Origin: a virus
Strand: one strand, 5' to 3'
DNA: 33,679 bases
IMG/VR virus record: IMGVR_UViG_3300045918_000843
Location: 1-33,679 of that record
Shown: positions 5,841-19,032 of the stretch, piece by piece
Layout: each line of letters starts with the position of its first letter
How positions within the stretch are numbered: position 1 is the stretch's first letter
Notes under the pieces: generated by a model
Database searches by the model: none
What the model was told of the DNA's origin: nothing
Seen by the model: the letters and a program-made list of their open reading frames with translations, nothing else
Program-made: the position numbers and the translations under genes

Positions 5841-6176
5841 TTAGCGCAAATGCTTAAACAGCTCAACCGCACCCGATACCAATGCCGCTGCAATACCGCC
5901 GCCAAGCGCCGATTGCGTAGCAATTTGACCGATGAAAACCTTGTCCTGCGACTCCAGCTTATCCAGCCGACCGCTGTGCGATTGAAAGCGCTTATCCACC
6001 GATTCACCAAGCTCTTTTATTTGCTCTTTCAGCGATGTTTCCACACGCCCAATATTGGTCGCGTTTTCCTCGCGCATACGGCGGATGTCTTCGCGCATGG
6101 CTTGCACGTTTTCAACTAGCCCTTTGGTGATGCCTGTCAACTCGCCAAGACCACGCTCTAAAGATTCGCCGCTCAT
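5841..6176 (-). CDS. Coiled-coil protein with C-terminal membrane segment
   Basis: A 111-residue protein. Residues about 15-80 are highly charged with heptad-like spacing (VQAMREDIRRMREEN, VETSLKEQIKELGESVDKRF), indicating a long coiled coil. A short hydrophobic stretch near the C-terminus (ALGGGIAAALVSGAVELF) looks like a membrane anchor. The topology resembles XhlA-like holin-associated proteins, and the position between holin and terminase corresponds to Mu gp25 (DUF2730). Its start overlaps the holin stop as ATGA, so the two are probably translated in coupled fashion. A role in lysis or membrane association is inferred; I do not recognise a specific family with certainty. Confidence 0.7.
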   Translation of the reverse strand: MSGESLERGLGELTGITKGLVENVQAMREDIRRMREENATNIGRVETSLKEQIKELGESVDKRFQSHSGRLDKLESQDKVFIGQIATQSALGGGIAAALVSGAVELFKHLR

Positions 6177-6604
6177 TTGGTAAGCCCTTTATTTTTTTCC
6201 CAGGTTCGAACACCTGTGTAGCCCAGATAACCCACGCCAAAGAGCTGCCAAAGCGAATCAGGGATAGCATCTAAAAATGCAGCAATACCCGTTGTAAACC
6301 GCGCCGCGCCGTCGGGGAACCAGACGCTGCAAAGGCTGACAGGAACGGCTAGCAAAATCATCAAATACATCACGTACAAAAATGATGGGCGTGCGCGGCT
6401 GGTATAGGGGTCGGCGCTTTGCGCCTCGGCAATAATGGCACTCATTTGCAAGCGCAAAGTATCGAGTTCGCCGGATTGGTTAGCTTGAAGAAGTTTGAGC
6501 TGTGCATCCGCCTGCTGCGCGGGGTCTGGCCAGACACGATTAATAATTGACTGACCAATTTTTAAGACTACGTCTGCTGGATTTAGATCAGAGAGTAAGC
6601 TCAT
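6173..6604 (-). CDS. Holin, 3-TM family
   Basis: Inner-membrane pore former that releases endolysin at the end of infection. The 143-residue product shows the Holin_3TM pattern: an N-terminal amphipathic part ending in INRVWPDPAQQADAQLKLLQ, a polar helix (GELDTLRLQMSAIIAEAQS), an RARPSFLYVMYL segment that begins the first hydrophobic stretch, then further hydrophobic segments around VPVSLCSVWF and LWQLFGVGYLGYTGV. I chose ATG 6604 rather than the upstream 6664 because it overlaps the endolysin stop as ATGA and gives the family N-terminus (MSLLSDLNPADVV). It sits between endolysin and the coiled-coil gene in a lysis cassette. Confidence 0.87.
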   Translation of the reverse strand: MSLLSDLNPADVVLKIGQSIINRVWPDPAQQADAQLKLLQANQSGELDTLRLQMSAIIAEAQSADPYTSRARPSFLYVMYLMILLAVPVSLCSVWFPDGAARFTTGIAAFLDAIPDSLWQLFGVGYLGYTGVRTWEKNKGLTK

Positions 6605-7089
6605 ACAGCGTCCTTGAGTTGATTGGCAATGCGTACCGCCCAGCCTTTGCCGAAGATTTGCCATGTGGAAAGCTGAGTCAGAAATTCGAGCCGCGTGCCG
6701 ATATAGCGGCGAATCAATACGTCCTCGCGCATGGCGTTGATAGCAGCAAGCGTGACCTTGCCAATCTTGCCGTCCTCGGGCACGCCTACGGATTTTTGCA
6801 GCCAGCGCAAAGAGTTTTCAATACCGCTGTTGACCGCGCCATCAAATACCTGCATCACCACGTGCGCAGGCAGGCCGTCGGCGTGCATCCGAACCCAGTA
6901 ATCGCGGTAGTAAATCGCGCGGGCTTGGTCTAGTGTGAGCGCGGCAATATCCAGCAGCGGATAAGCGCGTTTGCTAATGCCGTACTTAGTCTCGCCGCCC
7001 GCATCACGCGGGTCGTTGACATAGCCGCCCTCGTTATCGATGAGTTTGGCAAAGACTTCGTCAAAGTAAGTGGGGGTGTTTTGTTCCAT
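6601..7089 (-). CDS. Endolysin, glycoside hydrolase family 108
   Basis: Peptidoglycan-cleaving muramidase for host lysis. In the 162-residue protein the N-terminal GH108 domain has NEGGYVNDPRDAGGETKYGIS, with Glu20 of the EGGY motif as the expected catalytic acid. The C-terminal part (about 90-160) fits the peptidoglycan-binding PG_binding_3 domain, with VGVPEDGKIGKVTLAAIN. No signal peptide is seen, so export should depend on the adjacent holin. Start ATG 7089 gives the usual family N-terminus; an in-frame upstream start at 7179 would run through the activator site described at 7098-7146. It is the first gene of the leftward late operon. Confidence 0.92.
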   Translation of the reverse strand: MEQNTPTYFDEVFAKLIDNEGGYVNDPRDAGGETKYGISKRAYPLLDIAALTLDQARAIYYRDYWVRMHADGLPAHVVMQVFDGAVNSGIENSLRWLQKSVGVPEDGKIGKVTLAAINAMREDVLIRRYIGTRLEFLTQLSTWQIFGKGWAVRIANQLKDAV

Positions 7090-7097
7090 GCCCGCAA

Positions 7098-7146
7098 GTG
7101 TCAGGCGGCATGGGGGCGGGGTCAACGCGGGAAATGTTTCCTGCGG
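7098..7146 (-). promoter_or_regulatory. Candidate late promoter of the lysis/packaging operon with activator dyad
   Basis: On the minus strand a 21-base imperfect dyad (7146 down to 7126) reads CCGCAGGAAACATTTCCCGC plus G, with core GGAA-N4-TTCC. The same dyad stands ahead of gpI at 18949-18969 (18 of 21 bases identical). In both places TGACAC follows TTTCCC after exactly 25 bases (here 7103 down to 7098). There is no good -35 hexamer, as expected for an activator-dependent Mu-type late promoter. Binding by the Mor-family protein encoded at 18333-18806 is inferred. Confidence 0.65.
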
Positions 7147-7159
7147 GCTTATTTTTAGA

Positions 7160-7348
7160 TCAACAGCGAGCGCGGTCAATCACACCACGCAGCCACTCAG
7201 ATCCACCCAGCAACTTAAACAATGCGACTTGATCTGGTCTAACGGTAGCGCGAACAACCTTCATGTGCGAGCCTTCGGGCTTGCTGCTATTTTTATTGCC
7301 TAGCGGTGCGCCGCCTTTGCGGCTGGGCGGTTTATTGGTCGTTGTCAT
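7160..7348 (-). CDS. Small basic protein, possible ribbon-helix-helix type
   Basis: A 62-residue protein, not firmly recognised. The first half is low-complexity and basic (SRKGGAPLGNKNSSKPEGSH). The second half contains a predicted strand (KVVRATVRPDQ) followed by two helices (ALFKLLGG, SEWLRGVIDRARC), which resembles small phage DNA-binding proteins of the ribbon-helix-helix kind. It overlaps the upstream gene by 17 bases and ends 70 bases before the endolysin, that is, before the late dyad. It therefore probably closes the short leftward operon that begins at 7998. Confidence 0.6.
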   Translation of the reverse strand: MTTTNKPPSRKGGAPLGNKNSSKPEGSHMKVVRATVRPDQVALFKLLGGSEWLRGVIDRARC

Positions 7349-7712
7349 TTAGCCCCATCCTGTCGTCACGGTCGATACGATTAAGCACAGCCTTGTCGCA
7401 CGTCTCTTTGAGCACATCAGGCTCTGGCCTTGGATCTATCCAAGCAAAATCGGAAAATGCGAGTCCGTGCGTGGTGCAGGCGTACAGCTCTTTGCTGGAG
7501 TTTGGCATTAAGCCAACTGCGCTTATAAGCGCCGTGTCCTTCGGGTGGCTCTCTGCCATGTCGGTACGCTCGGCAACGCGGCAAATAAATCGAGGGTAGC
7601 GCGTGTGGGTGAGGTACTCGTATTGATCAAAGCCATTCTCGGCCTCGTCGGACGTGGCTTCCCCCCAGATGTAGGGGGGTAGCTTGTTGAAGGCGCTGTT
7701 TTTGCTAGACAT
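7332..7712 (-). CDS. Hypothetical protein, 126 residues
   Basis: No family recognised. The protein is acidic and soluble, without signal peptide or membrane segment. It has an aromatic-rich first half (PPYIWGE, YEYLTHTRYPRFICRV), three Cys, and a charged C-terminus rich in Asp (IDRDDRMGLNDNDQ). Its start overlaps the end of the 97-residue gene upstream by 8 bases, and its end overlaps the 62-residue gene, so the three form one translational unit. It may be a moron or host-takeover gene, but nothing in the sequence decides this. Confidence 0.6.
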   Translation of the reverse strand: MSSKNSAFNKLPPYIWGEATSDEAENGFDQYEYLTHTRYPRFICRVAERTDMAESHPKDTALISAVGLMPNSSKELYACTTHGLAFSDFAWIDPRPEPDVLKETCDKAVLNRIDRDDRMGLNDNDQ

Positions 7713-7998
7713 CGGCTACCAATACGGCTTTTACTAAAGTGGGGTTTGGGTAATTAACCATACCAGAGCCAAAGCCCCAACGATTCAAAATCCCCCTAGA
7801 AGTAAAACCATAGGTGTTGTCATTGGTTGGCGCGTCTAATTTTGTCACTTCGATAAAGCCCGAGACGCCGCTTATTTTTGTGACCGTAAAACCATACTCA
7901 GCTTTGTTGTTGGGGTTACGCAAAATACCGACCTTTTGACCGACCAAAAATGGTGTGGCTGTATTTTGTTCAATGATTTGTGTGTAGTCGTATTTCAT
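7705..7998 (-). CDS. Hypothetical protein, 97 residues
   Basis: No family recognised. The composition suggests a small beta-rich soluble domain (PFLVGQKVGILRNPNNKAEYG, then VTKISGVSGFIEVTKLD). There is a strong ribosome binding site (AAAGGA, 7 bases before ATG 7998), unlike most genes of the leftward operon. It is the first gene downstream of the consensus promoter/palindrome at 8046-8083, with about 50 bases of leader. It is expected to be well expressed when that promoter is free. Confidence 0.65.
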   Translation of the reverse strand: MKYDYTQIIEQNTATPFLVGQKVGILRNPNNKAEYGFTVTKISGVSGFIEVTKLDAPTNDNTYGFTSRGILNRWGFGSGMVNYPNPTLVKAVLVADV

Positions 7999-8045
7999 TT
8001 TCGTTTCCTTTAAGACCGAGTCGTCGGTTGGCGTTTATGCGTTTG

Positions 8046-8083
8046 CATGGTTTGAATTATAGCTATAATTCAAACCATGTCAA
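8046..8083 (-). promoter_or_regulatory. Consensus sigma-70 promoter embedded in a perfect 34-bp palindrome
   Basis: Positions 8046-8079 are a perfect inverted repeat with 17-base arms (CATGGTTTGAATTATAG and its complement) and no loop. On the minus strand a consensus -35 TTGACA (8083 down to 8078) and a consensus -10 TATAAT (8061 down to 8056) are separated by 16 bases. The palindrome covers the spacer, the -10 and the likely start point. This is the geometry of a strong promoter under a symmetric operator, reading toward the gene at 7998. The palindrome differs from the GGAATATC repressor half-sites at 9272-9314, so a different regulator is implied. Confidence 0.7.
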
Positions 8084-8091
8084 CGGTATGG

Positions 8092-8376
8092 TTACTTACT
8101 ACCCGCTTTGCCAGTGTCAGGATTGATATTTCCTTTTGTATCCCAGTTGTCAGTCGTCCTATCGTTGCCATTAGATTGGCGATACGGCGCAACCCTAGTG
8201 CCATTCTTTTTTGAGTAACCCCTGACGCTGTGAGCGCTGCGGTTAGCGCCCGTTCCCGTTGCACGTTTGCCACCGCCTCCGCCGCGACTGCCGCCGTGTG
8301 AGCCTTTGGCTTCTACGAATGGCGTTAAAAGAGCGCCCAATAGGGCTGTGAATAGTGAGCGGCGTGTGGTCGTCAT
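8092..8376 (-). CDS. Small secreted Gly-rich protein with VRGY...APYRQ motif
   Basis: A 94-residue protein with an N-terminal export signal (TTRRSLFTALLGALLTPFVEA, probable cleavage near residue 23). The twin arginine could make it a Tat substrate. A Gly-rich linker (GSRGGGGG) follows, then a C-terminal block HSVRGYSKKNGTRVAPYRQ and DNWDTKGNINPDTGK. That block resembles a short motif recurring in small exported phage and bacterial proteins, whose function I do not know. It begins 6 bases after the stop of the membrane-protein gene and ends just before the 8046-8083 promoter. It is probably co-transcribed with the repressor. Confidence 0.7.
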   Translation of the reverse strand: MTTTRRSLFTALLGALLTPFVEAKGSHGGSRGGGGGKRATGTGANRSAHSVRGYSKKNGTRVAPYRQSNGNDRTTDNWDTKGNINPDTGKAGSK

Positions 8377-8382
8377 AAATTG

Positions 8383-8883
8383 CTATTTGAGCGACTTATC
8401 TTTTTTCTCTAATTGATACTGCATGTGTGCCAATGGTGCAAACATTGTCACATTTCTATTTTTATCTAGTGCGAGATTTAACACTGTGTCGGCGACAGTA
8501 AGGCGCCAATACCACTCGCCAGTATCCGATGTTTTATCCCTCTTGATTTCGTAGCCATACCTGCTTGGCGTACCCCACTCGGTATCTGACGGTTTTGCAT
8601 TTTGAATCGTTAAGCCCTCTTCCGATATAACCCAGCGCTCCCATTGATAAGGTTCGCTAGTGCCTGTGAGGGGCTGTGCGAATGTCCAAGTGCCAAGTAA
8701 ATATTTTTGTGCTTGTTGTGGCGTTTCAATATTTGTATTGAGTGCAGCCTTTATTAGATTGATTGCCAAAATTCCAGCAACTATAAAAATCACAAAGGCA
8801 AAGTACTGCCAAGTCTTTGGCAGTTGCGCCAGCTTTTCTTTTTGCGTCTCGCTTTGGATCGGCTCAATTTTTAAGTCCTCCAT
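8383..8883 (-). CDS. Single-span membrane protein with extracytoplasmic domain, unknown function
   Basis: A 166-residue protein. A charged N-terminus is followed by one hydrophobic segment (residues about 27-46, WQYFAFVIFIVAGILAINLI), then a beta-rich domain with YLLGTWTF, YQWERWVISEEGLTIQ, GEWYWRLTVADTVLNLAL and a charged KKDKSLK tail. This is consistent with a periplasmic domain tethered to the inner membrane. There is a good ribosome binding site (AGGGAG). It starts 14 bases after the repressor stop, so it is very likely on the repressor transcript and made in the lysogen. A role such as superinfection exclusion is possible but inferred. The gene looks more AT-rich than the structural genes. 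Confidence 0.7.
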   Translation of the reverse strand: MEDLKIEPIQSETQKEKLAQLPKTWQYFAFVIFIVAGILAINLIKAALNTNIETPQQAQKYLLGTWTFAQPLTGTSEPYQWERWVISEEGLTIQNAKPSDTEWGTPSRYGYEIKRDKTSDTGEWYWRLTVADTVLNLALDKNRNVTMFAPLAHMQYQLEKKDKSLK

Positions 8884-8897
8884 CTCATCTCCCTTTC

Positions 8898-9269
8898 TTA
8901 GGTTGGCATTGTTGGCTCGGGGATTCCCGCAGCATCAAGCACTGTTTTGATTACTTCCCGCGTTTTTGGCGGCGCTGCTAGTAACTGCCTTGCCGCGCGT
9001 TGCACATCTGGTTTTGATCGCCTGAACTCATCTACCAAAAACAATTCTGTTGGCGTGATTTGCACGCCCAGCGTGCCCTTCCCAACCAAGATATAGGCAA
9101 CGTCAATACCTGCCGAACCAAGGGCTGTTAAGTATTGCACGTCAGGTGTTCGTGTGCCTCTTTCATAGTTGTACTGTGCAATTTTTTTAACGCCACCCAA
9201 TGCACCAAAAGCCTCTTGCGTGTAGCCGAGTTTTTCGCGTACTTCACGCAATCTTTCAAATACTTCCAT
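8898..9269 (-). CDS. Phage repressor, XRE-type helix-turn-helix (c-like)
   Basis: A 123-residue DNA-binding protein. The N-terminal HTH spans about residues 3-58 (FERLREVREKLGYTQEAFGALG, then KKIAQYNYERGTRTPDVQYL), followed by VAYILVGKGT and a helical C-terminus for dimerisation. There is no peptidase or RecA-cleavable domain. I chose ATG 9269 over the longer frame to 9443 because it starts at the HTH, has an AGGA site, and leaves the operator repeats free; the start codon itself lies at the edge of the first operator. It is divergent from the gene at 9351, the usual lysis-lysogeny switch arrangement, and should repress both that gene and itself. Confidence 0.85.
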   Translation of the reverse strand: MEVFERLREVREKLGYTQEAFGALGGVKKIAQYNYERGTRTPDVQYLTALGSAGIDVAYILVGKGTLGVQITPTELFLVDEFRRSKPDVQRAARQLLAAPPKTREVIKTVLDAAGIPEPTMPT

Positions 9270-9317
9270 TTGGAATATCCTTACTACTAGTAATGATATT
9301 CCAAATGGAATATCATT
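9267..9317. promoter_or_regulatory. Repressor operator region with three GGAATATC half-sites
   Basis: GGAATATC occurs at 9272-9279 and 9307-9314, and inverted as GATATTCC at 9295-9302. The last two form a near-contiguous dyad with 11-base arms and a 4-base spacer (9292-9317). Outer arms CATTTGGAATATC (9267-9279) and GATATTCCAAATG (9295-9307) also match perfectly around a 15-base spacer. TTGGAA inside the repeats could act as a -35 in each direction. This is the expected operator between divergent repressor and early promoters. In Mu the operators also serve as the transposition enhancer; whether that holds here is unknown. Confidence 0.75.
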
Positions 9318-9350
9318 CGTACATCTTAACAAGACGCAACGGGACAAAAA

Positions 9351-9557
9351 ATGGCACTTACACCGCAACAGGTCAAAACCAAATTCAAACGCGAAGGCGT
9401 AACTTTCACCGACTGGGCAACCAAAAACGGCTTTAACCGCCACCTGGTCTACCTAGTTTTGAATGGCCAGCACAAATGCAACTGGGGTAAGGGTCACGCC
9501 TGCGCCGTTGCGCTTGGTCTCAAAACTTCAGATTCTAGCGAATCGGTGTCAGCTTGA
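9351..9557 (+). CDS. BcepMu gp16-like phage regulator (Ner/Cro-position HTH)
   Basis: A 68-residue DNA-binding protein, the first rightward early gene, opposite the repressor. The pattern LTPQQVKTKFKREGVTFTDWATKNGF, NRHLVYLVLNG and a final AVALGLK fits the BcepMu gp16 phage-associated family (TIGR04111 as I recall it), a small helix-turn-helix. By position it plays the part of Ner in Mu, damping repressor and early transcription. It stops in the bases that form the next gene's start (TTGATG). Confidence 0.8.
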   Translation: MALTPQQVKTKFKREGVTFTDWATKNGFNRHLVYLVLNGQHKCNWGKGHACAVALGLKTSDSSESVSA

Positions 9558-9886
9558 TGTCTACGCCGCCACCCACCCAAACCAACCGCCCGAGCACCAG
9601 AGCGCCACGAGCGCCCGAGAGCCTGCGCGTCGGGTGTGGTGGTGGCACCCATACCCCTACGCCCTCTGTGGCTAGCCGCCTTGGACTGGACCAGCCGCAT
9701 TTGCTGCGGATGCTGGCCGAGGTGTGCGAGCAGATGGAGGTGACACCTGATGAGATGCCTTACGGCTATCGCACGTTGGCACTGGCTGCGCTGCACGACG
9801 TGGACTGCTTGATTACGACCTACATCGCTAGCTATTGCAAAAACAGCCTTGCTAGCAACCCCGCACAACAAACATTTGATTTTTAA
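9557..9886 (+). CDS. Hypothetical early protein, 109 residues
   Basis: No family recognised. The first 35 residues are Pro/Thr/Arg-rich and likely disordered. The rest is helical (PHLLRMLAEVCEQMEVTPDEMPYGYRTLALAALHDVDCLI). Its ATG shares bases with the stop of the regulator gene, and it is followed by the DUF3102-like gene after 11 bases. It is part of the early operon; a small DNA-binding or adaptor role is possible but unsupported. Confidence 0.55.
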   Translation: MSTPPPTQTNRPSTRAPRAPESLRVGCGGGTHTPTPSVASRLGLDQPHLLRMLAEVCEQMEVTPDEMPYGYRTLALAALHDVDCLITTYIASYCKNSLASNPAQQTFDF

Positions 9887-9897
9887 AGGAATGAACC

Positions 9898-10926
9898 ATG
9901 AGTAAAACAACCGCCCTAGCCACCCAAGCCGCCGCCCAGTTTGAGGTGATGACCCCGCTAGAAGAATGCTTGGTAGATTTTGGTTTGCAGCACGCAACAA
10001 CGGATGAGTTGCTGGATGCTGGATTGGTCGCACTCAATAAAAGTATGTACCACGCTTGCCAAGCAGGCGTTGTATTTTGGCGAGTACGAGAGCAATTAAA
10101 TACCGACTGCGACAAATCGCAGTCGGGGAATTTAAAAGATTGGATTGTTAAAAATGGCATTTCAGAGCGGCGCGTGTATGAGTGCATCAAGCTAGCCAAG
10201 TTTTATGCAAGGTTACCTGCGCCTGAGCGTGCAAAGCTACATAAATTGAGTTTGCGCAAAGCGATATTACTTAGCGCTGCCTCCCAAGACGTGATCGACA
10301 AAGCCGCCGAGGGTGGGCAGGACTTGCTAGATGAGGCAGAACTCATGAGCTACCACGACTTGCGCAAGGTGGTGGAGGGTTTGCGCGGTGAGAACGCGAG
10401 TGCGGAGCACAGAATTGAGGTGCTAGAGAAACAGTTGTCGCGCCCCGACCCTGCCACGGTGCGCGGCTCGGACTACAACGCGCAGACGCTGATGGTGCGG
10501 GATGAGTGCATGGCCTATTTGACTAGCCTCACACTCTCTTTGGATGGCATTCGAAGGGTGTTTGACAAGGTTTGCCAGACCCCACAAGCGCCCGAATTTA
10601 ATTTGCAAATAGAGCAGCTTTGGTTGACCGCTTGCATGATGCATGCCAAGGCCTCTACCGTGGTGAGTAGCTTGGCTGAGGAGTCGCCGCTGCCCAGTCT
10701 GCCTGAGGTGGTGCGCCCCGTGCATACGTTAACGGCTGAGGAGTCGGCGCATTGGCTCTCTGAGGAAAAGATGCTGCGTGCGCAGTGGTCGGGCCAGGAA
10801 GCAGGCAGGGCGATTAACCGTGCGGCGACCCTAGCAGATGAGCCACGCGGGCGTGGGCGACCATCGAAGCTGGACGCGCAAGCAAGGCAGGTGGCACAAG
10901 CAGCCAAAGCAAAGACTGTGGGCTAA
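9898..10926 (+). CDS. DUF3102-like phage early protein
   Basis: A 342-residue, mostly helical protein lying directly before the transposase, a place where BcepMu-type phages have a similar gene. Residues about 45-130 (LNKSMYHACQAGVVFWRVREQL, LKDWIVKNGISERRVYECIKLAKFY) resemble the DUF3102 pattern, in which a helical segment precedes an HTH-like ISERRVYECIKLA. A coiled-coil section follows (ENASAEHRIEVLEKQL). The C-terminus carries an AT-hook-like RGRGRPSK. A DNA-binding accessory or regulatory role in transposition is inferred. Confidence 0.65.
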   Translation: MSKTTALATQAAAQFEVMTPLEECLVDFGLQHATTDELLDAGLVALNKSMYHACQAGVVFWRVREQLNTDCDKSQSGNLKDWIVKNGISERRVYECIKLAKFYARLPAPERAKLHKLSLRKAILLSAASQDVIDKAAEGGQDLLDEAELMSYHDLRKVVEGLRGENASAEHRIEVLEKQLSRPDPATVRGSDYNAQTLMVRDECMAYLTSLTLSLDGIRRVFDKVCQTPQAPEFNLQIEQLWLTACMMHAKASTVVSSLAEESPLPSLPEVVRPVHTLTAEESAHWLSEEKMLRAQWSGQEAGRAINRAATLADEPRGRGRPSKLDAQARQVAQAAKAKTVG

Positions 10927-10938
10927 GGATCACCTGCC

Positions 10939-12684
10939 ATGCATAAGCTACCCAGCAAACCTAGCCTTGCCCTGGCACCGCTCACAAAGCGGGGCATGAT
11001 TTTGACGAATCAATCGAGTGCGCCCGTAAGCAAGCAATTAGATTTTGCAAGCGAAAAAATACGGACTCGCACAACCGCACGCAGGGATGTGGTGCTGTAT
11101 GTGGATGGATTAGTTGCCAAGGGACTGTCTCAGCGCAAAGCAGTGGAGCAATTGCGTCGTTCTTATGAGTATGAATTACTCGAGCCCGAATTGATGCGTG
11201 CCCTTTGTGCGGCGGCTGTGGCAGGTCGTGGATGCCCCAGCAAAGCGGTGATTAGCCAGTGGCGCAAGACCCTCAAAGCCATGCCTAGCGAAGACAGCGC
11301 AGCTGCCTTAATGCCCAAGTGGCAAGGTAAGGTCACCGCACCCGCCCCTTGGATGGCGCAAGCGGCTGTCATTTACAACGCCCCTAGCAAGCCTGCGGCG
11401 GCGGCAGTACACCGCGAGTTGACCGAAGTGCATGGCTATACCTGCACCTACGACATGGTGCTTGGCTATTTGCGTGCCTTGCCTGCACAGTACGGCGAGC
11501 AAAGCGCTGCCCGCATGGGAAGCAACTTGCACAGGCTCAAACTAAAACCATACAAGCCTCGGACAACGGAAAACATGCTGGCGGGTGATGTGTATGCCGC
11601 TGACGGCTACCGCGCAGACGTATTGATTGCCCACCCCATTACGGGTGATATTTGGCGACCAGAGTTGACCGTCGGTATGGACGTACGTAGTCGCTTTATT
11701 GTGGGCTAGCGTGCAGATGAGCATGAGGGTACGGTTGCCGTGCAGAACATGTGGGCAGAAGCCTTTACGCGTCATCGCCATGTACCGCTAGACCTCTACA
11801 TCGACAACGGCTCAGGTCATAAAAACAAACTGATGAGCACAGATGGCACAGGTTTTTACGACCGTGCAGGCGTGTGCGTGACGCATGCCCACCCTGGCAA
11901 TCCGCATGGCAAGGGTTGGATTGAGCGCTTCTTTCGCATCATGAAAGAGGACTTCTTAAAACTGTGGCAGCCTGAGTTTTACTTTGGCGGCGACATGGCG
12001 CCTGAGATCAAAAACAAAATCACTCGCGAAGTACGTGCTGGACACCGCAAGCTACCCAGTGCTGCCCAGTTTGCCGATGCATTTAACGCATGGCTTGCAC
12101 GCTATCACAGCCGACCACACCCAGAAATGCCAGGGCGAAGTATTGCCAGTGTGTGGGCTGAATTAGAGCCCGTCTCCCCAGCACTTGACGAAATCAGCCT
12201 GAAGCGCCAAGTCACCCAAATCAGTGTTGTACGCGGGATGCTCAATCACGGCAAACGCAAATACCGTGCGCCAGAATTATTGGCCTATACAGGGCAAAAA
12301 CTCTTACTGGAGTACGACTTGTTAGACGATCAAGTCGCCATTGTTTGCACCTTGGATGGTCGCTTTATTTGCGATGCAGCGCTGGTCAGTGCCATTGATG
12401 TCTTTGCGCCGAATCGACAAGAAGAAAAGCGTCAGCAACGCGCACAAGGACAAGCCAAGCGGACAGCGCTACGTGCTGATGTGCAACGAGCCCGCGCAGG
12501 TTTACTCATCGACGCAGAGGCCACAGCTGTAGGTACGCACGACTTACTAGACGTGCCCACACGCCTGATTTCAAACGGCGCTGAAGACGATTTCGACATC
12601 GACATCGACATTACCGAGCTATCGCCTAGCCCAAACCGACCAACCAATCAACCCTCACCAACCCAAGGAGACCTTGATGACTGA
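10939..12684 (+). pseudogene. MuA-type DDE transposase interrupted by an in-frame amber codon
   Basis: Transposase for integration and replicative transposition. Both halves lie in one frame: codons 1-256 (10939-11706), TAG at 11707-11709, then continuous coding to 12684. The full product would be 581 residues. Residues 45-200 hold HTH DNA-binding subdomains. The catalytic core has AADGYRAD (Asp222), LYIDNGSG (Asp289) and GWIERFF (Glu329), followed by a beta-barrel-like domain and a basic C-terminus for MuB contact. The amber codon lies between Asp222 and Asp289, so the short product lacks two catalytic residues; a restart at ATG 11740 would lack the first. MuA, as I recall it, has Trp at the aligned place (LGWR), so TGG to TAG is a one-base explanation. 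No frameshift or other damage is seen. Suppression or sequencing error remain possible. Confidence 0.9.
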
Positions 12685-13627
12685 AACCACAAAGTATGCA
12701 CCTCACTACAGCAAAGAGGACATCGCCATAGCCGAGCGCGTGAACGCTTGGCTGGTGCAGCGCAGTTACAGCCAAGCCGCGCTGGGACGGCTGGCACGCA
12801 TTGCTGCCAGCACGCTCAATCAGATTTTGAAGGGTAACTATGCCACTAGCCCGACCAAGCAGCTGCAAGCGGTGGACGGTGCTATGCAACGTGCCGACGA
12901 TAGCCAAGCTGATGCCGCTACGCCGCCCGTAGAGACCAGCGTGTACAAGCTCGCGTTTGCCGCCTGCGGCATGGCACGGCGCTACCGCAACTTTGCGGTG
13001 CTATCAGCGCGAGTGGGCACAGGCAAGACGTTTGCGCTCAAGCGCTATGCGCGAAGTAAAGGCAACACGCACCTAATTGAGGCCACGCCCACCATGACCC
13101 CGCAAAGCCTTGTGAAATTATTGGCACGGGTCGTGCTGGGTGTCGAGATTAAAGGCGGCATGGACGACAGATTTCTAGCGGTCGTCGCTGCCCTACGCAA
13201 CACGGATAGCTTGCTCATCATTGACGAAGCCGAAACCATGACCAACAAGCAGCTAGAGGTCATCCGCCGCCTGCGCGACCTTGCCGATGTAGGCGTAGTT
13301 CTGGCAGGCACAGAGTTTTTGAGTGCGCTCATCAAACCCGAGCGCGGCCAGTTTGGACAAATCCGCAGCCGCGCAGGCTACTGGCCTGAGACCGTACAAG
13401 CCATCACCGCAGAGGATGCCGCCGCCTTGGTGCAAGCGCACCTGGGCAACGAAGAAGTGGGCGACGACGTGGTGGCACGGCTCTACGCCTACTCGCGTGG
13501 CAGCGCTCGGATGCTGTGCGAAGGCTTGCTGGCAGGCATCAAAGAGTTCCGCAAGGGCCGCGAGATCAACGTCAAGTTGGTGGATGCCGTCGCCAAGCAA
13601 GCGCTGTGCTTGCAATCTTTAGCTTAA
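12677..13627 (+). CDS. MuB-type AAA+ ATPase, transposition target DNA activator
   Basis: An ATP-dependent DNA-binding protein that delivers target DNA to the transposase and confers target immunity in Mu. In the 316-residue protein an N-terminal HTH covers about 15-65 (YSQAALGRLARIAASTLNQIL). The P-loop ARVGTGKT is at 111-118 and Walker B LLIIDE at 179-184, followed by a sensor-like VVLAGTEF. The C-terminal helical domain includes YAYSRGSARMLCEGLL. ATG 12677 was chosen over TTG 12674 because of a clear AAGGAG site; it overlaps the transposase end by 8 bases. The gene is intact although the transposase is not. Confidence 0.92.
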   Translation: MTETTKYAPHYSKEDIAIAERVNAWLVQRSYSQAALGRLARIAASTLNQILKGNYATSPTKQLQAVDGAMQRADDSQADAATPPVETSVYKLAFAACGMARRYRNFAVLSARVGTGKTFALKRYARSKGNTHLIEATPTMTPQSLVKLLARVVLGVEIKGGMDDRFLAVVAALRNTDSLLIIDEAETMTNKQLEVIRRLRDLADVGVVLAGTEFLSALIKPERGQFGQIRSRAGYWPETVQAITAEDAAALVQAHLGNEEVGDDVVARLYAYSRGSARMLCEGLLAGIKEFRKGREINVKLVDAVAKQALCLQSLA

Positions 13628-13640
13628 ACAGGAGATCACC

Positions 13641-13826
13641 ATGCAACGCAACGAATACGGCTACATCTACACCCCCGATCCACTGCTGACGCGCCGCCAA
13701 AAAGTGCAGCGGTTCTTCCAACGCCGCAAGCCGCTATTTTGGACGCTGGTTGGTGTATTTGGCTACATCGCCATCACAGCGCTCATACAAACACTAGACG
13801 CGCAAGCGCTGCGGAGTTTGGGATGA
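13641..13826 (+). CDS. Small single-span membrane protein
   Basis: A 61-residue protein: a basic, tyrosine-containing N-terminal part (RRQKVQRFFQRRKP), then one transmembrane helix (LFWTLVGVFGYIAITALI), consistent with N-in topology by the positive-inside rule. There is an AGGAG-type binding site 13 bases after MuB. Its stop overlaps the next start as ATGA. Function is unknown; it is part of the early operon. Confidence 0.6.
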   Translation: MQRNEYGYIYTPDPLLTRRQKVQRFFQRRKPLFWTLVGVFGYIAITALIQTLDAQALRSLG

Positions 13827-14098
13827 AAGGCATACACATGGTAGGCGCCGCCGATCCCATGCTGGTAACGCAGGTAATAACGCCCGTGCAGCGCACATCA
13901 AGCGCCACACGCTGTGACCGCATGGGCGTGTGTCAAAACCTGACGCCACGCTGCGCTGGCTGCGATCTAGTACGCGGCTGCAAACCAACACCAAAACCCG
14001 CATGGCCATTTCCGCAAGCGCCTGTGCCGAGCGGGTATCTATCAAAGGCCGAGCTGCCATACCTCAAACGAGAGCACACGCTGTGCGCCGCTGATTAG
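13823..14098 (+). CDS. Cys-rich small protein, possible zinc binding
   Basis: A 91-residue protein. The central CDRMGVCQNLTPRCAGCDLVRGC contains five closely spaced cysteines, suggestive of a zinc knuckle. The C-terminus is Pro-rich (KPTPKPAWPFPQAPVP), then YLSKAELPYLKREHTLC. The ATG overlaps the preceding stop, which favours this start over the longer frame beginning at 13739. No family recognised; zinc binding is inferred from Cys spacing only. Confidence 0.55.
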   Translation: MKGIHMVGAADPMLVTQVITPVQRTSSATRCDRMGVCQNLTPRCAGCDLVRGCKPTPKPAWPFPQAPVPSGYLSKAELPYLKREHTLCAAD

Positions 14099-14107
14099 GA
14101 GTCACGC

Positions 14108-14515
14108 ATGAAATCCAACCTCATCAAAGACATAACTATGTGGCACTTAAACGCCGCGCATAAAGGGCGCAGTTGCGGCATCAAGGTGGAAGCCTTAGCT
14201 CGCAAAGTCAATGTGAGCCAGCGCGACGTGCGTCAAGCCGTGAGCGACCTGCGCGAAGACGGCGTGCCAGTTGCCGCCACGCCAGCCACGGGCTACTACA
14301 TCGCTCAAACGGCAGATGAGGTTGATGAGTGCTGCCAGTTTTTGCGCCGCCGCGCCATGCATAGCCTGCGCCTCGAGTCCCGCCTGCGCAAGGTCGCGCT
14401 GCCAGAGCTGCTCGGGCAGATCAGCCTAGACGTGAGCGAGCCGCCAACCGATATGTCCGTCAACCCGATCACCCAATTTATTAACCACGCCAACCAAGGA
14501 AAACACCATGACTGA
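14108..14515 (+). CDS. Winged-helix DNA-binding protein
   Basis: A 135-residue protein. The N-terminal 75 residues read as a winged helix: MWHLNAAHKGRSCGIKVEALARKVNVSQRDVRQAVSDLRE supplies the HTH, and DGVPVAATPATGYYIAQT the wing. A helical, Arg-rich tail follows (CCQFLRRRAMHSLRLESRLRK). Similar small HTH proteins occur in the early operons of Mu-like phages. There is an AGGAG site, and the stop overlaps the DUF3164 start by 8 bases. The target is unknown; it is one candidate for binding the 8046-8079 palindrome. Confidence 0.7.
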   Translation: MKSNLIKDITMWHLNAAHKGRSCGIKVEALARKVNVSQRDVRQAVSDLREDGVPVAATPATGYYIAQTADEVDECCQFLRRRAMHSLRLESRLRKVALPELLGQISLDVSEPPTDMSVNPITQFINHANQGKHHD

Positions 14516-15128
14516 AAAAACCACCATACCAGAGGGATTCTGGGAACGCGCCGACGGCACATTAGTGCCCGAGACCAAAGTCAAAGAAATCGACAAACTG
14601 CGCGACAGTTTGGTGCGCGAGATCATTGGTAAAGCCCGCAGCACTAACCGAGAACTTGCCACATTCAAAGGCGCGGTCATGGACGATATTGCCGCCTTTG
14701 TCTCCACTAGCGCGACTCAGTACGAGGCCAAGATTGGCGGCACAAAAGGTAACGTCACGTTGCTGTCTTTTGATGGACGCTTAAAAATCCAGCGCTCCAT
14801 GCAAGACAAGATCACGTTTGGCGAGCAGCTGCAAGCCGCCAAGGCGCTGATTGATGAGTGCATGAAGGACTGGACGAAGGACAGCAACGACAACATCAAG
14901 GCGCTTATCAATAACGCCTTCCAAGTCGATGCACAAGGCCAAGTCAGCACAGGCCGCGTGCTTGGGCTGCGCACCATCAAGATCAGCGATGAGCGCTGGA
15001 CGCAGGCGATGCAGGCTATTGCCGACTCAATGCAAACGGTCAGCAGCAAAGCGTACATACGCTGCTACGAGCGCAACGATGCAAGCGGTGAATACACCCC
15101 GATTAGCTTAGATGTTGCGAGTGCCTAA
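14508..15128 (+). CDS. DUF3164 family phage protein
   Basis: A 206-residue protein of a family widespread in the early region of Mu-like phages. The signature is IPEGFWERADGTLVPETKVKEIDKLRDSLV at the start, an ATQYEAKIGGTKGNVTLLSFDGRLKIQRS beta segment, and TGRVLGLRTIKISDERWTQAMQAIADSM near the end. Length is normal. The biochemical role is unknown; the family is sometimes labelled sulfate transporter-like without basis. It lies in a coupled run with the winged-helix gene. Confidence 0.85.
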   Translation: MTEKTTIPEGFWERADGTLVPETKVKEIDKLRDSLVREIIGKARSTNRELATFKGAVMDDIAAFVSTSATQYEAKIGGTKGNVTLLSFDGRLKIQRSMQDKITFGEQLQAAKALIDECMKDWTKDSNDNIKALINNAFQVDAQGQVSTGRVLGLRTIKISDERWTQAMQAIADSMQTVSSKAYIRCYERNDASGEYTPISLDVASA

Positions 15129-15131
15129 ACC

Positions 15132-15308
15132 ATGAAAAGCATCGAACAAATAGCCGAAATCGCCTACACCGAATACATGCGCGTGCGACAAGCTAATACG
15201 CGCGGCGCATGCATGACCTTTGGCTGGTCAGCGCTCGATACCACCACTAAATCGGCGTGGATATCTGCCATACAAAAAGTACGTGATGAGATAGCCGCAG
15301 TCCATTAA
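15132..15308 (+). CDS. Small hypothetical protein, 58 residues
   Basis: Starts with MKSIEQIAEIAYTEY three bases after the DUF3164 stop and ends at TAA 15306-15308. It is helical with a W-containing segment (GWSALDTTTKSAWISAIQKVRDEI). Similar short proteins follow DUF3164 in several Mu-like phages as far as I recall, but no function is known. It is supported by tight spacing and continuous early-operon context. Confidence 0.55.
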   Translation: MKSIEQIAEIAYTEYMRVRQANTRGACMTFGWSALDTTTKSAWISAIQKVRDEIAAVH

Positions 15309-15325
15309 CCACACGAAAGAAAACT

Positions 15326-15571
15326 ATGCAACTCAAATCAATGGGAATCCTCGGCGCAATCTTTGCGATGGCGTTATCGACTCGCAGTACCGATCCACGT
15401 AGCCGTGAATTGAACCGTTCAAGTCGCACTCGTAATCAGCCTGATGTCGATAAGCCGTGCTTTGGCGACAAGCTAGCACGCAAGGCGCTCAAAGGCCGCA
15501 TCGGTACGTGCCACGGCACTGGCTATGTAGCTAGCAAGGCGGCAAAAAAGCGCCGCAATGCGATCAAGTAA
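15326..15571 (+). CDS. Small basic hypothetical protein, possibly exported
   Basis: An 81-residue protein. The first about 20 residues (MQLKSMGILGAIFAMALST) could be a signal peptide or membrane anchor. The remainder is strongly basic (SRELNRSSRTRNQ, KLARKALKGRIG, AAKKRRNAIK) with two Cys. No family recognised. It sits between two small early genes with a normal binding site (AAAGAAAA). Its end overlaps an upstream in-frame extension of the next gene, which is why a later start was chosen for that gene. Confidence 0.5.
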   Translation: MQLKSMGILGAIFAMALSTRSTDPRSRELNRSSRTRNQPDVDKPCFGDKLARKALKGRIGTCHGTGYVASKAAKKRRNAIK

Positions 15572-15581
15572 AGAGCACACC

Positions 15582-15752
15582 ATGAAAGTAACCATCACTT
15601 TAGAAGACGAAGCAAACGGCGATATGACTGCGCAAATCGACTTTGATCCACCCATAGATGAAAACACAGCCGAGACGACAGCAGGCAGATTAGGGCTCGA
15701 AATCGTACACCTCTTAAAGAATAAAGCGACAGAAGTTTCTGTTGAGGATTAA
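15582..15752 (+). CDS. Small acidic hypothetical protein, 56 residues
   Basis: MKVTITLEDEANGDMTAQIDF starts at 15582 after AAAGAG; the in-frame ATG at 15558 is inside the preceding gene. It is acidic and of mixed alpha/beta composition (beta hairpin, then a helix ETTAGRLGLEIVHLLKN). It looks like the short MKVTITL-type proteins found in Mu-like early regions. It is the last gene before the paired hairpins at 15770-15841. Function unknown. Confidence 0.6.
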   Translation: MKVTITLEDEANGDMTAQIDFDPPIDENTAETTAGRLGLEIVHLLKNKATEVSVED

Positions 15753-15769
15753 TTTATTTATTTGAGTCA

Positions 15770-15841
15770 GGCGGAAGCAATGCAGTTGCCGCCTTTTATC
15801 CCCGAGGCCTGTGTCTGTGGCATGGTGCTTCGGGGCTTTTT
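15770..15841 (+). terminator. Two tandem intrinsic-terminator-like hairpins
   Basis: The first hairpin (15770-15793) pairs GGCG with CGCC and GCAA with TTGC, and is followed by TTTT. The second pairs CCCCGAGGC with GCTTCGGGG (15800-15835, one G-U) and is followed by CTTTTT (15836-15841). Both have rightward terminator form and separate the transposition operon from the gene starting at 15894. Confidence 0.75.
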
Positions 15842-15893
15842 GATGACGCTTTAAACGCCGTTTAGAGCTTCACCAAAAAGGAGTTAAACCAAG

Positions 15894-16499
15894 ATGATGA
15901 ATGACGAATATCCAACCCAAAGACGCGTTGATGCTGCACGCACTACTGCGCCAAAAACGACAGGCGCATCTAGCGTTTTTAGTATGGGCGGCAGCCCTGC
16001 TGCACCGCCTGCAAAATCCAAACGCAAAGGCGAAGACTCGCCAATGTTTCTGATTTTGCGGGCGTTAGATTCAGGTGTAGCGCTAACAGCGACCCAACTG
16101 GCAATTCAAGTTGAACTTGATAACAAGGTGGTCTCTCAAGCTTTGTATGGTATGAATAAGAACTTTCTTGTGCGCAGAATTGGGCACGCATACGAGATCA
16201 CCAGAGCTGGCAAAACGCGACTGTCAAACTTTGATGCAGACGCCAAATTCAGCAAGCCAAAAAGCAAGCTATCGCCAGTCGTTGAGAAATTCATAGCTGA
16301 TGCGACTCAATCCATACATTCCATAGTCGAGGTGATGCCTAAACCGCTAACGATTCGGCTTGCGTACTTTAACGATGGCGGCGTGATGGTCGAGCGGGGC
16401 ACAGCGCGGCTTGAATTGACACCTGAAGACGTACTGACGGTGGTCGAATTCTTTGCCAAAGTTGGCGTGGGAGCGGAGGCAAGCCATGCCAGCCTATAA
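15894..16499 (+). CDS. Putative winged-helix protein, 201 residues
   Basis: First gene after the terminators, with a strong AAGGAG site 9 bases before the start. Residues 1-50 are low-complexity and basic. Residues about 52-110 read as a winged helix (MFLILRALDSGVALTATQLAIQVELDNKVVSQALYGMNKN, then FLVRRIGHAYEITRAGKTRLSNF). The C-terminal domain (about 125-195) is of mixed alpha/beta type and ends EDVLTVVEFFAKVGVGAE. A transcription regulator role is inferred from the fold prediction only. The end overlaps the ASCH remnant by 14 bases. Confidence 0.65.
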   Translation: MMNDEYPTQRRVDAARTTAPKTTGASSVFSMGGSPAAPPAKSKRKGEDSPMFLILRALDSGVALTATQLAIQVELDNKVVSQALYGMNKNFLVRRIGHAYEITRAGKTRLSNFDADAKFSKPKSKLSPVVEKFIADATQSIHSIVEVMPKPLTIRLAYFNDGGVMVERGTARLELTPEDVLTVVEFFAKVGVGAEASHASL

Positions 16500-16688
16500 C
16501 TTTCAAAAGCAATTTGCACCCGCCGTCGAGCGCGGTGAGAAGCTCTGCACCATCCGCCGCAAAGCACCTAAGGTGGGCGATAAGGCGTATCTCTACACAG
16601 GAATGCGCACTAAGGCTTGCCGTCCGCTGGGCGTGGGTGTGGCAACGACTTCGACGGCTTTTTGATTGAGTGGGAGAAGCAAGCATGA
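16486..16688 (+). pseudogene. Degraded ASCH-domain gene with internal deletion and frameshift
   Basis: The N-terminus (MPAYNFQKQFAPAVERGEKLCTIRR, LYTGMRTKACRPLG) is a clear phage ASCH-domain start, a predicted RNA-binding fold. The open frame then stops at 16665 after a short unrelated tail, about 59 residues in all, whereas intact relatives I remember are over 100. The expected family ending (FDGFLIEWEK) appears in another frame at 16650-16682 and runs to TGA 16686-16688, overlapping the HNH start. The middle of the gene is therefore missing, with a frame change at the junction near 16630-16641. It is upstream-coupled to the 15894 gene. Confidence 0.75.
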
Positions 16689-17329
16689 CTAAAAGCCGTC
16701 ACATCAACACTCCGCGTAAGTCTTGGACAGCGCTTGAAATCGCGCAGCTGACGAAGCGATATCCAAACGAAACAGCATCCGATTTAGCGACTGCCTTTGG
16801 TGTAATGACGTCCGTTATTTATGCAAAAGCACGTCGCCTCGGCTTGCATAAATCAGCCGAATTTTTAGCGAGTGAAAAATCTGGTCGGCTTGATGGCATC
16901 AAGGGGGCAGCGACACGATTTGCTAAGGGCGGTCAAAGCTGGAATGCTGGCATGACTGGCCTAAAAATTGGTGGCACACAGACGCAATTTAAGCCGGGGC
17001 AAGTACCTCACAACTACACACCGATCGGAACGATACGCACCACCACGAAAGATATGTATTGGAAGGTCAAAGTAGCCGAGCCAAACGTGTGGGAGTTTCT
17101 ACATCGCCACACATGGGAAGCCGTAAACGGAGTGATTCCCGAAGGCCATGCATTGTTATTTAAAGACAAAAACCGAAACAACTGCGCGATAGAAAACTTG
17201 GAGCTGGTGACACGCGCTGAGCTAAGCCGCCGTAATTGCGTTTGGCACACCTGGCCATTGGAGCTGAAGCAAGTCATTCGGTTGAACAACAAACTCATCA
17301 AGGAAATTAAAAATGCAACAAAACAATAA
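16685..17329 (+). CDS. HNH endonuclease (homing-type) with N-terminal HTH
   Basis: A 214-residue protein. The N-terminal half has a Myb/HTH-like segment (WTALEIAQLTKRYPNETASDLATAFGV, VIYAKARRLGL) that would give DNA specificity. The C-terminal HNH_3 core contains WEFLHRHTWEAVNG (His140/His142), PEGHALLFKDKNRNNCAIENLELVT (His155, Asn166). Such free-standing nucleases move between phage genomes and also occur as phage packaging or host-DNA nucleases. ATG 16685 overlaps the stop of the broken ASCH remnant as ATGA. The adjacent remnant suggests local rearrangement. Confidence 0.85.
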   Translation: MTKSRHINTPRKSWTALEIAQLTKRYPNETASDLATAFGVMTSVIYAKARRLGLHKSAEFLASEKSGRLDGIKGAATRFAKGGQSWNAGMTGLKIGGTQTQFKPGQVPHNYTPIGTIRTTTKDMYWKVKVAEPNVWEFLHRHTWEAVNGVIPEGHALLFKDKNRNNCAIENLELVTRAELSRRNCVWHTWPLELKQVIRLNNKLIKEIKNATKQ

Positions 17330-17576
17330 ATCTCTTGCCGATGTGCGTACGCATCTGTTCGCGGCACTGGACGGTCTGAAGGATGGCTCAATGGCGATTG
17401 ATAAAGCGATGGCGATCAGAGACATCGGGCAGACGCTCATCAACAGCGCCAAGGTTGAGGTTGATTTCCTACGAGTAACCGATGGCCAAGCGTCAGGGTT
17501 TATCGAGTCAGCGACCAAGCCGCCAGCGTTGCCCAATGGGATCAAGGGCGTAACACGTCATTTGATGAACGGATGA
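17313..17576 (+). CDS. Conserved phage hypothetical protein, 87 residues
   Basis: Contains the pattern LADVRTHLFAALDGLKDGSMAIDKAMAIRDIGQTLINSAKVEVDFL, common in small proteins of the middle region of many temperate phages. It is helical, with a C-terminal Pro/Gly segment ending in GVTRHLMNG. It starts inside the HNH gene's last codons and ends overlapping the DUF7220-like start, so translation is coupled. No established function. Confidence 0.7.
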   Translation: MQQNNKSLADVRTHLFAALDGLKDGSMAIDKAMAIRDIGQTLINSAKVEVDFLRVTDGQASGFIESATKPPALPNGIKGVTRHLMNG

Positions 17577-17827
17577 GCAGCATGACCCGCCTCACTACTC
17601 CCATGACCCAATCCCGCCTCCAATCCTTTATCGAAGCATGGTCAAACACGCTAATCGGCTACTTCATCAACTTGGCCGTGCAGCTGGTGGTCTATCCGTT
17701 TTACGGCGCAACTTTTAGCTTTGGCCAAAACATCCAGATTGGCCTCATTTTTATGGTGGTCAGTATGGTGCGGTCTTATGTGCTGCGGCGGGTTTTTAAT
17801 GCGCGGGTTGGGGGTAAGAAGTCGTGA
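17573..17827 (+). CDS. DUF7220-like small membrane protein
   Basis: An 84-residue protein with two hydrophobic segments (about 26-45, IGYFINLAVQLVVYPFYG, and about 52-68, IQIGLIFMVVSMVRSYVL), then a basic tail RRVFNARVGGKK. The order SRLQSFIEAWSNTLIGYFINLAVQ...SMVRSYVLRRVFN matches what I recall of DUF7220, frequent just before gemA in Mu-like phages. ATG 17573 is used, but ATG 17582 or 17603 could also serve. Function unknown. Confidence 0.75.
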   Translation: MSSMTRLTTPMTQSRLQSFIEAWSNTLIGYFINLAVQLVVYPFYGATFSFGQNIQIGLIFMVVSMVRSYVLRRVFNARVGGKKS

Positions 17828-18312
17828 GCGACCTTACCAAACACTACATCCAGCTCGTGGGCATTGCTAAGTCTTGGGCTTGCAAAAACATCGCTGGCTG
17901 GGATGACCAGATGCACCGTGATTTATTAGCTCGGCATGGGGCGGCTGAACGCGATGGCCGCACCTCTGCCAGTACTCTTAACGCGCCGCAGTTGGATGCG
18001 GTGCTATCGGATTACGAAGCTCGCGGCTGGACGCGCCAGCGCCGCCAGTTTGCGGAGCACGCCGTGGGCGCTAGCAATGGCGGTCAAAGTACCGTCCGCA
18101 CAGTTCGCGCTGTGCCTGCCCGTATCGCTCTTATTGTCAAGCTGTGGGCTGGTCTTGCCGAGGCAGGCAAGATTGAGCATGGCGACCGTAAGGCGCTGCT
18201 GGCTTGGGTAGAGCGTCAGACGGGACACACCGTGCCGAACCTTGATGCGCTGACTGTGCCCGAGTGCCAAAAGCTGATCGAGGCCCTCAAGGGCTATATG
18301 GCTCGCAAGTAA
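17824..18312 (+). CDS. gemA: GemA-like regulatory protein (Mu gp16, DUF1018)
   Basis: A 162-residue protein of the GemA family, which in Mu alters host gene expression and DNA supercoiling during lytic growth. The signature is an N-terminal HYIQLVGIAKSWACKNIAGWDDQMHRDLLARHG and a C-terminal LIVKLWAGLAEAGKIEHGDRKALLAWVERQTG, with ECQKLIEALKGY at the end. The start is GTG 17824, overlapping the preceding stop. It is directly followed by mor, as in Mu. Confidence 0.88.
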   Translation: MSDLTKHYIQLVGIAKSWACKNIAGWDDQMHRDLLARHGAAERDGRTSASTLNAPQLDAVLSDYEARGWTRQRRQFAEHAVGASNGGQSTVRTVRAVPARIALIVKLWAGLAEAGKIEHGDRKALLAWVERQTGHTVPNLDALTVPECQKLIEALKGYMARK

Positions 18313-18332
18313 CGCAGCAGCAGTAACAAGCC

Positions 18333-18806
18333 ATGAGTAAGCTCCGCGCCCGTCAACCCATTCAGCCTGTCCATCGCAAGCCTAAAGAGCAAGCGGTGTT
18401 GGATTGGCCGCTTGTGGAGGATGATCTGCTGCGCACGCTGCCGCCTATCTTGCGTGCTGTGGTGAAGGCGCTAGGGTTTAGCGGTGCGCGGGATTTTTTA
18501 GAAGAGCATGGCGGCGTGAACGTGTGGATACCGCAATTCAAAGAGACAGCCTATGGCCGTAGTGCTCAAGAGTTGGCGCGGCTGCGCATCACACTAGAGC
18601 CACACATAGACGCTACACGCCGCGTGACGCTGCCAAAAGTGGATAAATTATTTTTGAGCTATCGCAACCTCACCATCCAGCGCGAGCATGGTCGGATGAG
18701 TGCTCCACAGCTTGCCAAGCGCTACAAGCTGACCTCCCGCCATATCACCAATATCTTGGCAGGTGATGTGGGCATCAAGCCACAGATGGCTTTTGCGTTT
18801 GGATGA
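18333..18806 (+). CDS. mor: Mor/C-family transcription activator of late genes
   Basis: A 157-residue activator. The N-terminal dimerisation half has LPPILRAVVKALGFSGARDFLEEHGGVNVWIP. The C-terminal HTH is FLSYRNLTIQREHGRMSAPQLAKRYKLTSRHITNILAG, the Mor-family arrangement. Only one such gene is present in the window, whereas Mu uses Mor then C, so it may drive the late operons directly. The nearly identical dyads at 18949-18969 (just downstream) and 7126-7146 are its likely sites. A product of the middle operon with gemA. Confidence 0.9.
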   Translation: MSKLRARQPIQPVHRKPKEQAVLDWPLVEDDLLRTLPPILRAVVKALGFSGARDFLEEHGGVNVWIPQFKETAYGRSAQELARLRITLEPHIDATRRVTLPKVDKLFLSYRNLTIQREHGRMSAPQLAKRYKLTSRHITNILAGDVGIKPQMAFAFG

Positions 18807-18948
18807 TACTGCCACTACTCGCGCACTAAGCCGTTTAAACGCATTCGAATGCGCGCCTTCTGGCCTAGTTGGTATGCTGATGCCACTCAAGGCTTAAAAC
18901 GCCTAAAACAGCCCCTAACACAGAGCGTGCAAAAAGTAAGCGCATAGA

Positions 18949-18997
18949 CCGCAGGAAGTATTTCCCACGTGGTGCTAATGCCCCATAAATTTGACAC
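18949..18997 (+). promoter_or_regulatory. Candidate late promoter of the head/tail operon with activator dyad
   Basis: The 21-base dyad at 18949-18969 (core GGAAGTATTTCC) matches the lysis-operon site at 18 of 21 positions. TGACAC (18992-18997) follows TTTCCC after 25 bases, exactly as there. CATAAA (18984-18989), about 27 bases from the dyad centre, is a plausible -10, and no -35 is visible. Transcription would then begin near 18997, which argues against a TTG start at 18991 for gpI. Confidence 0.68.
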
Positions 18998-19032
18998 TAC
19001 ATCCATCGCAACTAATTGATGGAATTCAAACA

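Follow-up and report, generated by a model that had tools for sequence, protein, structure and literature searches.

A shared palindromic promoter element before the opposed late operons of a Mu-like phage, with a Mor-family protein as the probable common activator

How does a phage whose capsid module is split into two opposed arms keep the arms in step? The question has been open since 2008, when the authors of the work on Burkholderia phage KS10 called its divided capsid module unique, regarded the reason for the arrangement as unknown, and suggested a DksA-like protein as the coordinator (PMC2628397). The same question is raised by the IMG/VR virus record IMGVR_UViG_3300045918_000843 (positions 1 to 33,679; this whole stretch of 33,679 nt is called the window here), which by its Pfam and PHROGs matches is a Mu-like phage genome. 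Its leftward genes (704-7089) encode gp30/F, the portal, the terminase, a small DNA-binding protein, a holin-like protein and an endolysin. The rightward genes encode the transposase, B, GemA and a Mor-family protein, and then gpI, capsid and tail proteins. In a widespread group of Mu-like phages with such opposed structural arms, one palindromic promoter element recurs ahead of every late block, so that one phage activator can probably switch both arms on together. This would be a concrete answer to the question left by KS10.

A dyad and a -10 hexamer at fixed spacing

An earlier note on this DNA, made from the sequence alone, had pointed to two similar dyads at the starts of the opposed late operons, and the finding is real and stronger than first stated. 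The 21-mers CCGCAGGAAACATTTCCCGCG (7146-7126, minus strand) and CCGCAGGAAGTATTTCCCACG (18949-18969, plus strand) are identical at 18 of 21 positions, as claimed. The pattern TTTCCC-N25-TGACAC occurs exactly twice in the window, once at each dyad (expected 0.01), and none of 100 shuffled windows contained two. By itself the dyad is not a rare motif in the window, where 5 copies with up to three mismatches were found and 2.9 expected. The weight therefore rests on the pairing of the sites, their spacing and their conservation, not on the rarity of the dyad.

The fixed distance to a second element was borne out, but the proposal that TGACAC is a box of its own was not. The conserved element is GACACT (nAnnnT), which lies one base downstream; TGACAC is T plus GACACT, that is, the -10 element read one base early (7102-7097 and 18993-18998). 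A protein-binding box TGACAC does not hold up beyond a handful of close relatives (L011, L013, L047 and similar), and the conserved columns are A35 and T39, counted from the dyad centre (p35 and p39 below). The placement of dyads before two opposed late operons also stood, while the count was incomplete: a third site, at 29827-29844, had been missed.

Scored with a matrix trained on gpI sites without the window, the three sites reach 33.5, 21.1 and 16.4 bits; among 60 simulated windows the best score was 14.7. The left dyad GCAGGAAACATTTCCCGC (7127-7144, minus strand; 33.5 bits) lies ahead of the lysis/terminase/portal/head arm, with its -10 hexamer GACACT at 7097-7102 on the same strand (the TGACAC of the earlier note being 7103-7098); 23 of the 24 left sites have AnnnT at p35/p39. 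The gpI dyad GCAGGAAGTATTTCCCAC (18951-18968, plus strand; 21.1 bits) is followed by GACACT at 18993-18998, with a predicted start at about 19005-19006. The third dyad GCAGGAAGCGTTTCCGCC (29827-29844, plus strand; 16.4 bits) lies ahead of gp47 and within the final codons of the gp46 homologue, and its -10 hexamer is CACAAT (29869-29874, plus strand), a position at which CACAAT or CATAAT was found in 25 of 25 cases.

Relatives were collected by searching with two queries, the Mor protein and an alignment of seven relatives; 44 of the loci obtained lie in viral contigs and 11 in genome contigs. The loci are mostly betaproteobacterial; one is from Methylomonas and one is labelled Latescibacterota. 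A GAARYRTTTC dyad lies between the Mor-family gene and gpI in all 45 distinct regions, and A at p35 together with T at p39 is present in 44 of them (the next best offset reaches 13). The hexamers themselves vary at this position (GACACT, GAAGAT, AAAAAT, CACAAT, CATGAT and others). When 26 relative records were scanned with the gpI-trained matrix, sites appeared at four syntenic positions, each of which leads into an operon: ahead of the left lysis/packaging/head arm (23/25 of the records reaching it), gpI (26/26) and the tape measure gene (23/25), and at the end of gp46 ahead of gp47 (24/24). There are three such promoters in the window and four in most relatives. AnnnT is found on the operon strand in 115 of 117 sites and on the other strand in 11. 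Over 897 kb the matrix gave 159 matches and a reversed-matrix decoy gave 1. The earlier note had named late operons of relatives without the dyads as a refutation of its reading; conservation was found instead, in the relatives as well as in KS10 and Curvibacter phage TJ1. A chance resemblance of two sites, which would fit the frequency of mismatched dyads in a single window, is refuted by this conservation, and with the spacing and decoy tests its probability is practically negligible.

The gp47 dyad overlaps coding sequence and spans the gp46 codons for G-[N/S]-[V/I]-S, so its conservation could have come from the protein. The codons argue otherwise. The glycine is encoded by GGA in 24 of 24 gp47 sites, but outside the site these gp46 genes use GGA for only 11 of 151 glycines. 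Similarly, the serine codon is TCC in 23 of 25 sites and in 15 of 117 serines elsewhere. Conservation of the protein is ruled out as the cause by these otherwise rare codons, and selection therefore acts on the DNA.

Some features vary among the promoters. Across the 26 relatives and the window the -10 elements fall into two classes: TAANCT is found at left and tape-measure sites, whereas gpI sites lack T at the first position and gp47 sites have CACAAT or CATAAT. These classes may set relative strength or timing. In seven relatives (7 of 24 left sites) AnnnT occurs at equal spacing on the other strand as well, and the left dyad may fire in both directions in some phages. The left promoters and part of the tape-measure promoters in relatives have an alternating CGCGCGCG tract immediately upstream of the -10 (e.g. 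G012 8671, G017 8016 and G024 25716, in oriented coordinates); the window has no such tract.

The Mor-family protein as candidate activator

The protein encoded at 18333-18806 (plus strand) was assigned to the Mor family in the earlier note, and the profile searches agree: it matches PF08765 (E 1.1e-6; 29.1 bits, above the cut-off of 24.9) and, in PHROGs, the late activator family phrog_836 (8e-14). It is the only Mor/C-family protein found in the window. The PF08765 match spans residues 97-142, a C-terminal helix-turn-helix with a conserved LSSRxxxNI segment. The gene follows that of the GemA homologue (17824-18312, plus strand; PF06252, 1.2e-15), and this order is kept in relatives. Where the family was detected there is one locus per genome; two matches in G021 are parts of one frame. 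The matrix scan of the 26 records found no dyad upstream of mor.

We put the probability at roughly 0.87 that the dyads are operators of this Mor/C-family activator, which would start all late operons together. From the observed sites, their spacing, conservation and positions, their absence from the host and the presence of the Mor-family gene, we infer binding, activation, start sites, timing and history along the following lines. The activator would be made from the last gene of the early transcript. Its dimer would bind each dyad, replacing or propping up a poor -35, and recruit host RNA polymerase to the -10 nAnnnT, which keeps a constant spacing from the dyad (p34-39 counted from its centre, itself near -45.5). 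One protein would fire the lysis/packaging/head genes leftward, gpI/capsid/tail rightward, and the downstream tail promoters (gp47 here, and also the tape measure in relatives). During relocation and inversion of the lysis-to-head block the promoter would have moved along with the block, and the split arms would therefore stay synchronous.

The geometry is that of the activator-dependent promoters of Mu. At Pm of Mu, Mor acts as a dimer on a dyad whose centre lies at -43.5, and related dyads are bound by C at four late promoters (PMC4390567, PMC4287176). The shared features with Mor-dependent Pm and the C-dependent promoters (Plys, PI, PP and Pmom) are a Mor/C-family activator and a dyad just upstream of a recognisable -10. 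A poor or absent -35 may be another: the -35 region matches TTGACA at 17-bp spacing at a mean of only 2.0-2.5 of 6 positions, but the left site of the window has TTGACC. Late promoters number four in both systems, and in both the lysis genes and gpI have one each, but here the lysis promoter is inverted at the left end and the remaining promoters precede the tape measure gene and gp47. The palindrome is near-contiguous (GSTGGAAACRTTTCCAGC), unlike the two 5-bp repeats around 6 bp in Mu. In the main clade the dyad centre lies about 2 bp further from the -10 than in Mu, a comparison of spacing made through papers alone. Our matrix found no sites in Mu, B23 or YPCBV-1. TTATN6ATAA, a pattern for C sites, likewise failed to locate the late promoters of Mu.

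The Mu cascade has two steps, Mor and then C, with two Mor/C-family proteins. Here each genome has a single activator and no Mor-to-C relay is seen. With only one Mor/C-family gene, and that gene not preceded by a dyad, the relay appears to have collapsed to one step. The system would be of the known Mu Mor/C late-promoter type, and new as a regulon of one activator and several promoters that serves split, opposed late arms, with a translational gate probably added. It would represent a one-activator version of the Mu cascade.

Two independent cultured phages share the split order. KS10 (NC_011216) has Mor followed by the protease; it carries TGAAACATTTCA ahead of the holin (minus strand) and one-mismatch versions ahead of the protease and of gp44; all three sites have AnnnT at p33/p37. 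It differs from the main clade in having the -10 at p32-37, a spacing 2 bp shorter, and no tape-measure site was seen in it. TJ1 (MH766655) has four GGTGAARYRYTTCACC dyads with a fixed -10 and AnnnT at p33/p37; again the -10 lies at p32-37, the third site lies one gene earlier, and three starts are of leaderless type. If the final base of the hexamer is set at -7, the centre of the dyad relative to the predicted starts is at -43.5 in KS10 and TJ1, equal to Mu by this convention, and at -45.5 in the main clade. The KS10 paper describes no shared operator (PMC2628397). In our reading of these sequences, a common Mor dyad would be the best answer to the coordination of the two KS10 head modules.

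The dyads might instead assist promoters that answer to another early protein (HNH, other early proteins, or a DksA-like protein such as that proposed for KS10). Binding by Mor is a prediction, and the KS10 authors themselves proposed gp7; they also describe gp7 as absent from similar phages (PMC2628397). A Mor-family gene lies beside the gpI promoter in every locus, which is partly due to how the loci were found, and also in KS10 and TJ1. Proteins of the Mor/C family show just this promoter geometry in Mu. We regard a different early activator as improbable.

Operators of a host LacI-family regulator would be another reading, in which the late genes answer to host metabolism. The dyads resemble Cra/FruR-like palindromes (TGAAACGTTTCA), and the core GAAACGTTTC is similar to the Cra consensus. 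However, the exact palindrome GGAAAYRTTTCC occurs four times in each of two host genomes of about 2.4 Mb (Ferriphaselus and Nitrosomonadales), in a cluster on the prophage contig that lies inside the prophage locus or directly next to it, and no host regulon is visible in either genome. The four phage positions recur over many host genera, always with the Mor gene, which makes a host regulator very unlikely.

Palindromes at promoters are also typical of repressor operators, and a helix-turn-helix repressor-like gene is present in the window (8898-9443; Pfam). If cI or Ner bound the dyads, the late promoters would be shut in the lysogen. The divergent early/repressor control region has no site in any of the 26 records. 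In addition, a dyad in the place of the -35, at a fixed distance from a poor -10, is the geometry of an activator. We give the repressor explanation very little credence.

Several observations weigh against a common Mor-family activator. The window has no recognisable tape-measure site (best -13 bits), and two relatives likewise lack one; two relatives have no left site above threshold. The PDB match of the Mor-family protein to a Mu-type C is weak (E 0.87). We looked for a simple recognition code between residues of the Mor helix and half-site bases, and there is no clean one-to-one pattern. Finally, the left promoter of the window carries the -35-like match TTGACC (7125-7120, minus strand) with a 17-bp spacer to GACACT, and may have some activator-independent activity. 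With the preferred reading, that of Mor-dependent operators, the dyad and hexamer provide an operator-promoter pattern for calling late promoters in many uncultured betaproteobacterial Mu-like phages.

Predicted hairpins and probable leaderless starts at the late promoters

The gpI promoter of the window overlaps an inverted repeat, TTTGACACT (18990-18998) and AGTGTCAAA (19032-19040), with the inner pair TCCATC/GATGGA. The repeat (18990-19040, plus strand) encloses the Shine-Dalgarno sequence and the GTG start of gpI. The predicted folding energy of read-through RNA is -15.6 kcal/mol (z -4.7), and that of RNA from the expected promoter start at 19005 is -4.0 kcal/mol (z ~0). The same relationship is seen in relatives: in the gpI, left and tape-measure classes, the stretch covering the -10 and the start (about p34-48) can pair with the region around the Shine-Dalgarno sequence of the gene that comes first. 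We exchanged arms between relatives in 200 shuffles per promoter class. The scores for own and swapped arms were 5.33 and 4.20 (gpI), 6.68 and 4.45 (left), and 8.77 and 6.45 (tape measure), own arms exceeding all 200 swaps in each class. The predicted accessibility of the Shine-Dalgarno sequence is lower in read-through than in promoter-start RNA in 42 of 43 gpI, 20 of 21 left and 22 of 22 tape-measure promoters; since the relatives are not independent, these counts are not probabilities.

The arrangement would be that of certain T4 genes. The late promoters of gene e, soc and I-TevI lie inside hairpins at the ribosome-binding site (PMC3014915, PMC2988022). Here, too, the 5' arm lies in the promoter/start region and the 3' arm at the ribosome-binding site, and the arms covary. 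In T4 only the late-promoter RNA is translated well. The phage, the polymerase partner and the promoter type are different, and the present case concerns three operon starts known from sequence alone. Gating of translation in the style of T4 would, on this evidence, have arisen in transposable phages unrelated to it.

The hairpin is predicted to hide the Shine-Dalgarno sequence of the first gene in read-through RNA and not in promoter-specific RNA. We lean slightly towards a double lock, in which a single Mor-type activator would start all arms and each late promoter (gpI, left, tape measure) would form part of a hairpin, as its 5' arm, and so mask the ribosome-binding site or, where the hairpin is missing, the first gene would be leaderless. 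If so, early transcripts that pass mor could not make late proteins, since their ribosome-binding site would be hidden.

Promoters without the hairpin have the start codon 6-8 nt past the -10, as at the endolysin ATG of the window (7089) and at gpI in KS10 (L113) and TJ1 (L118). Late mRNAs with such starts are probably leaderless. The endolysin ATG coincides with the expected transcript start, after a 7-nt spacer past the -10, and its message is for this reason probably leaderless. Further starts at 6-8 nt were observed at the 25573 and 31236 sites of TJ1 and at gpI in L057 and L054; they recur in separate phages.

Neighbouring genes in the window

The first gene of the left late operon encodes a GH108 endolysin (6601-7089, minus strand; PF05838, 3.6e-24; phrog_315). 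The rest of this arm (704-6664, minus strand) comprises the holin-like gene, p5841, the gp27-type DNA-binding/small terminase gene, TerL, portal and gp30/F (phrog_3427, phrog_756, phrog_38, phrog_113, phrog_220). The right late operon begins with gpI, a Mu-like protease/scaffold protein (19033-20046, plus strand; PF10123, 4.6e-65), whose start is most likely the GTG at 19033 rather than the open reading frame start at 18991, and we corrected it accordingly. The first gene past the third promoter encodes a gp47-like baseplate protein (29917-30966, plus strand; phrog_6, 1.3e-54).

Five small genes lie on the minus strand at 7160-8883, between the repressor and the left late promoter and outside the late regulon. 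Pfam gave no match for the three closest to that promoter. In the lysogen, expression of the five may accompany that of the repressor. At 11707-11709 an in-frame TAG breaks the reading frame of transposase A (10939-12684), which reflects either a defective copy or a sequencing error; in the relative L009 the gene is a single unbroken open reading frame.

A cluster of TTTAAA, TTTGAA and TTCAAA is present at 18840-18905 of the window and in 45 relatives, mostly 100-120 nt upstream of the gpI dyad. Its density is 1.98 per 250 nt, compared with 0.21 in random windows. Since the annotated gyrase cut site of Mu occupies the corresponding G-I gap, the cluster may serve these phages as their central strong gyrase site.

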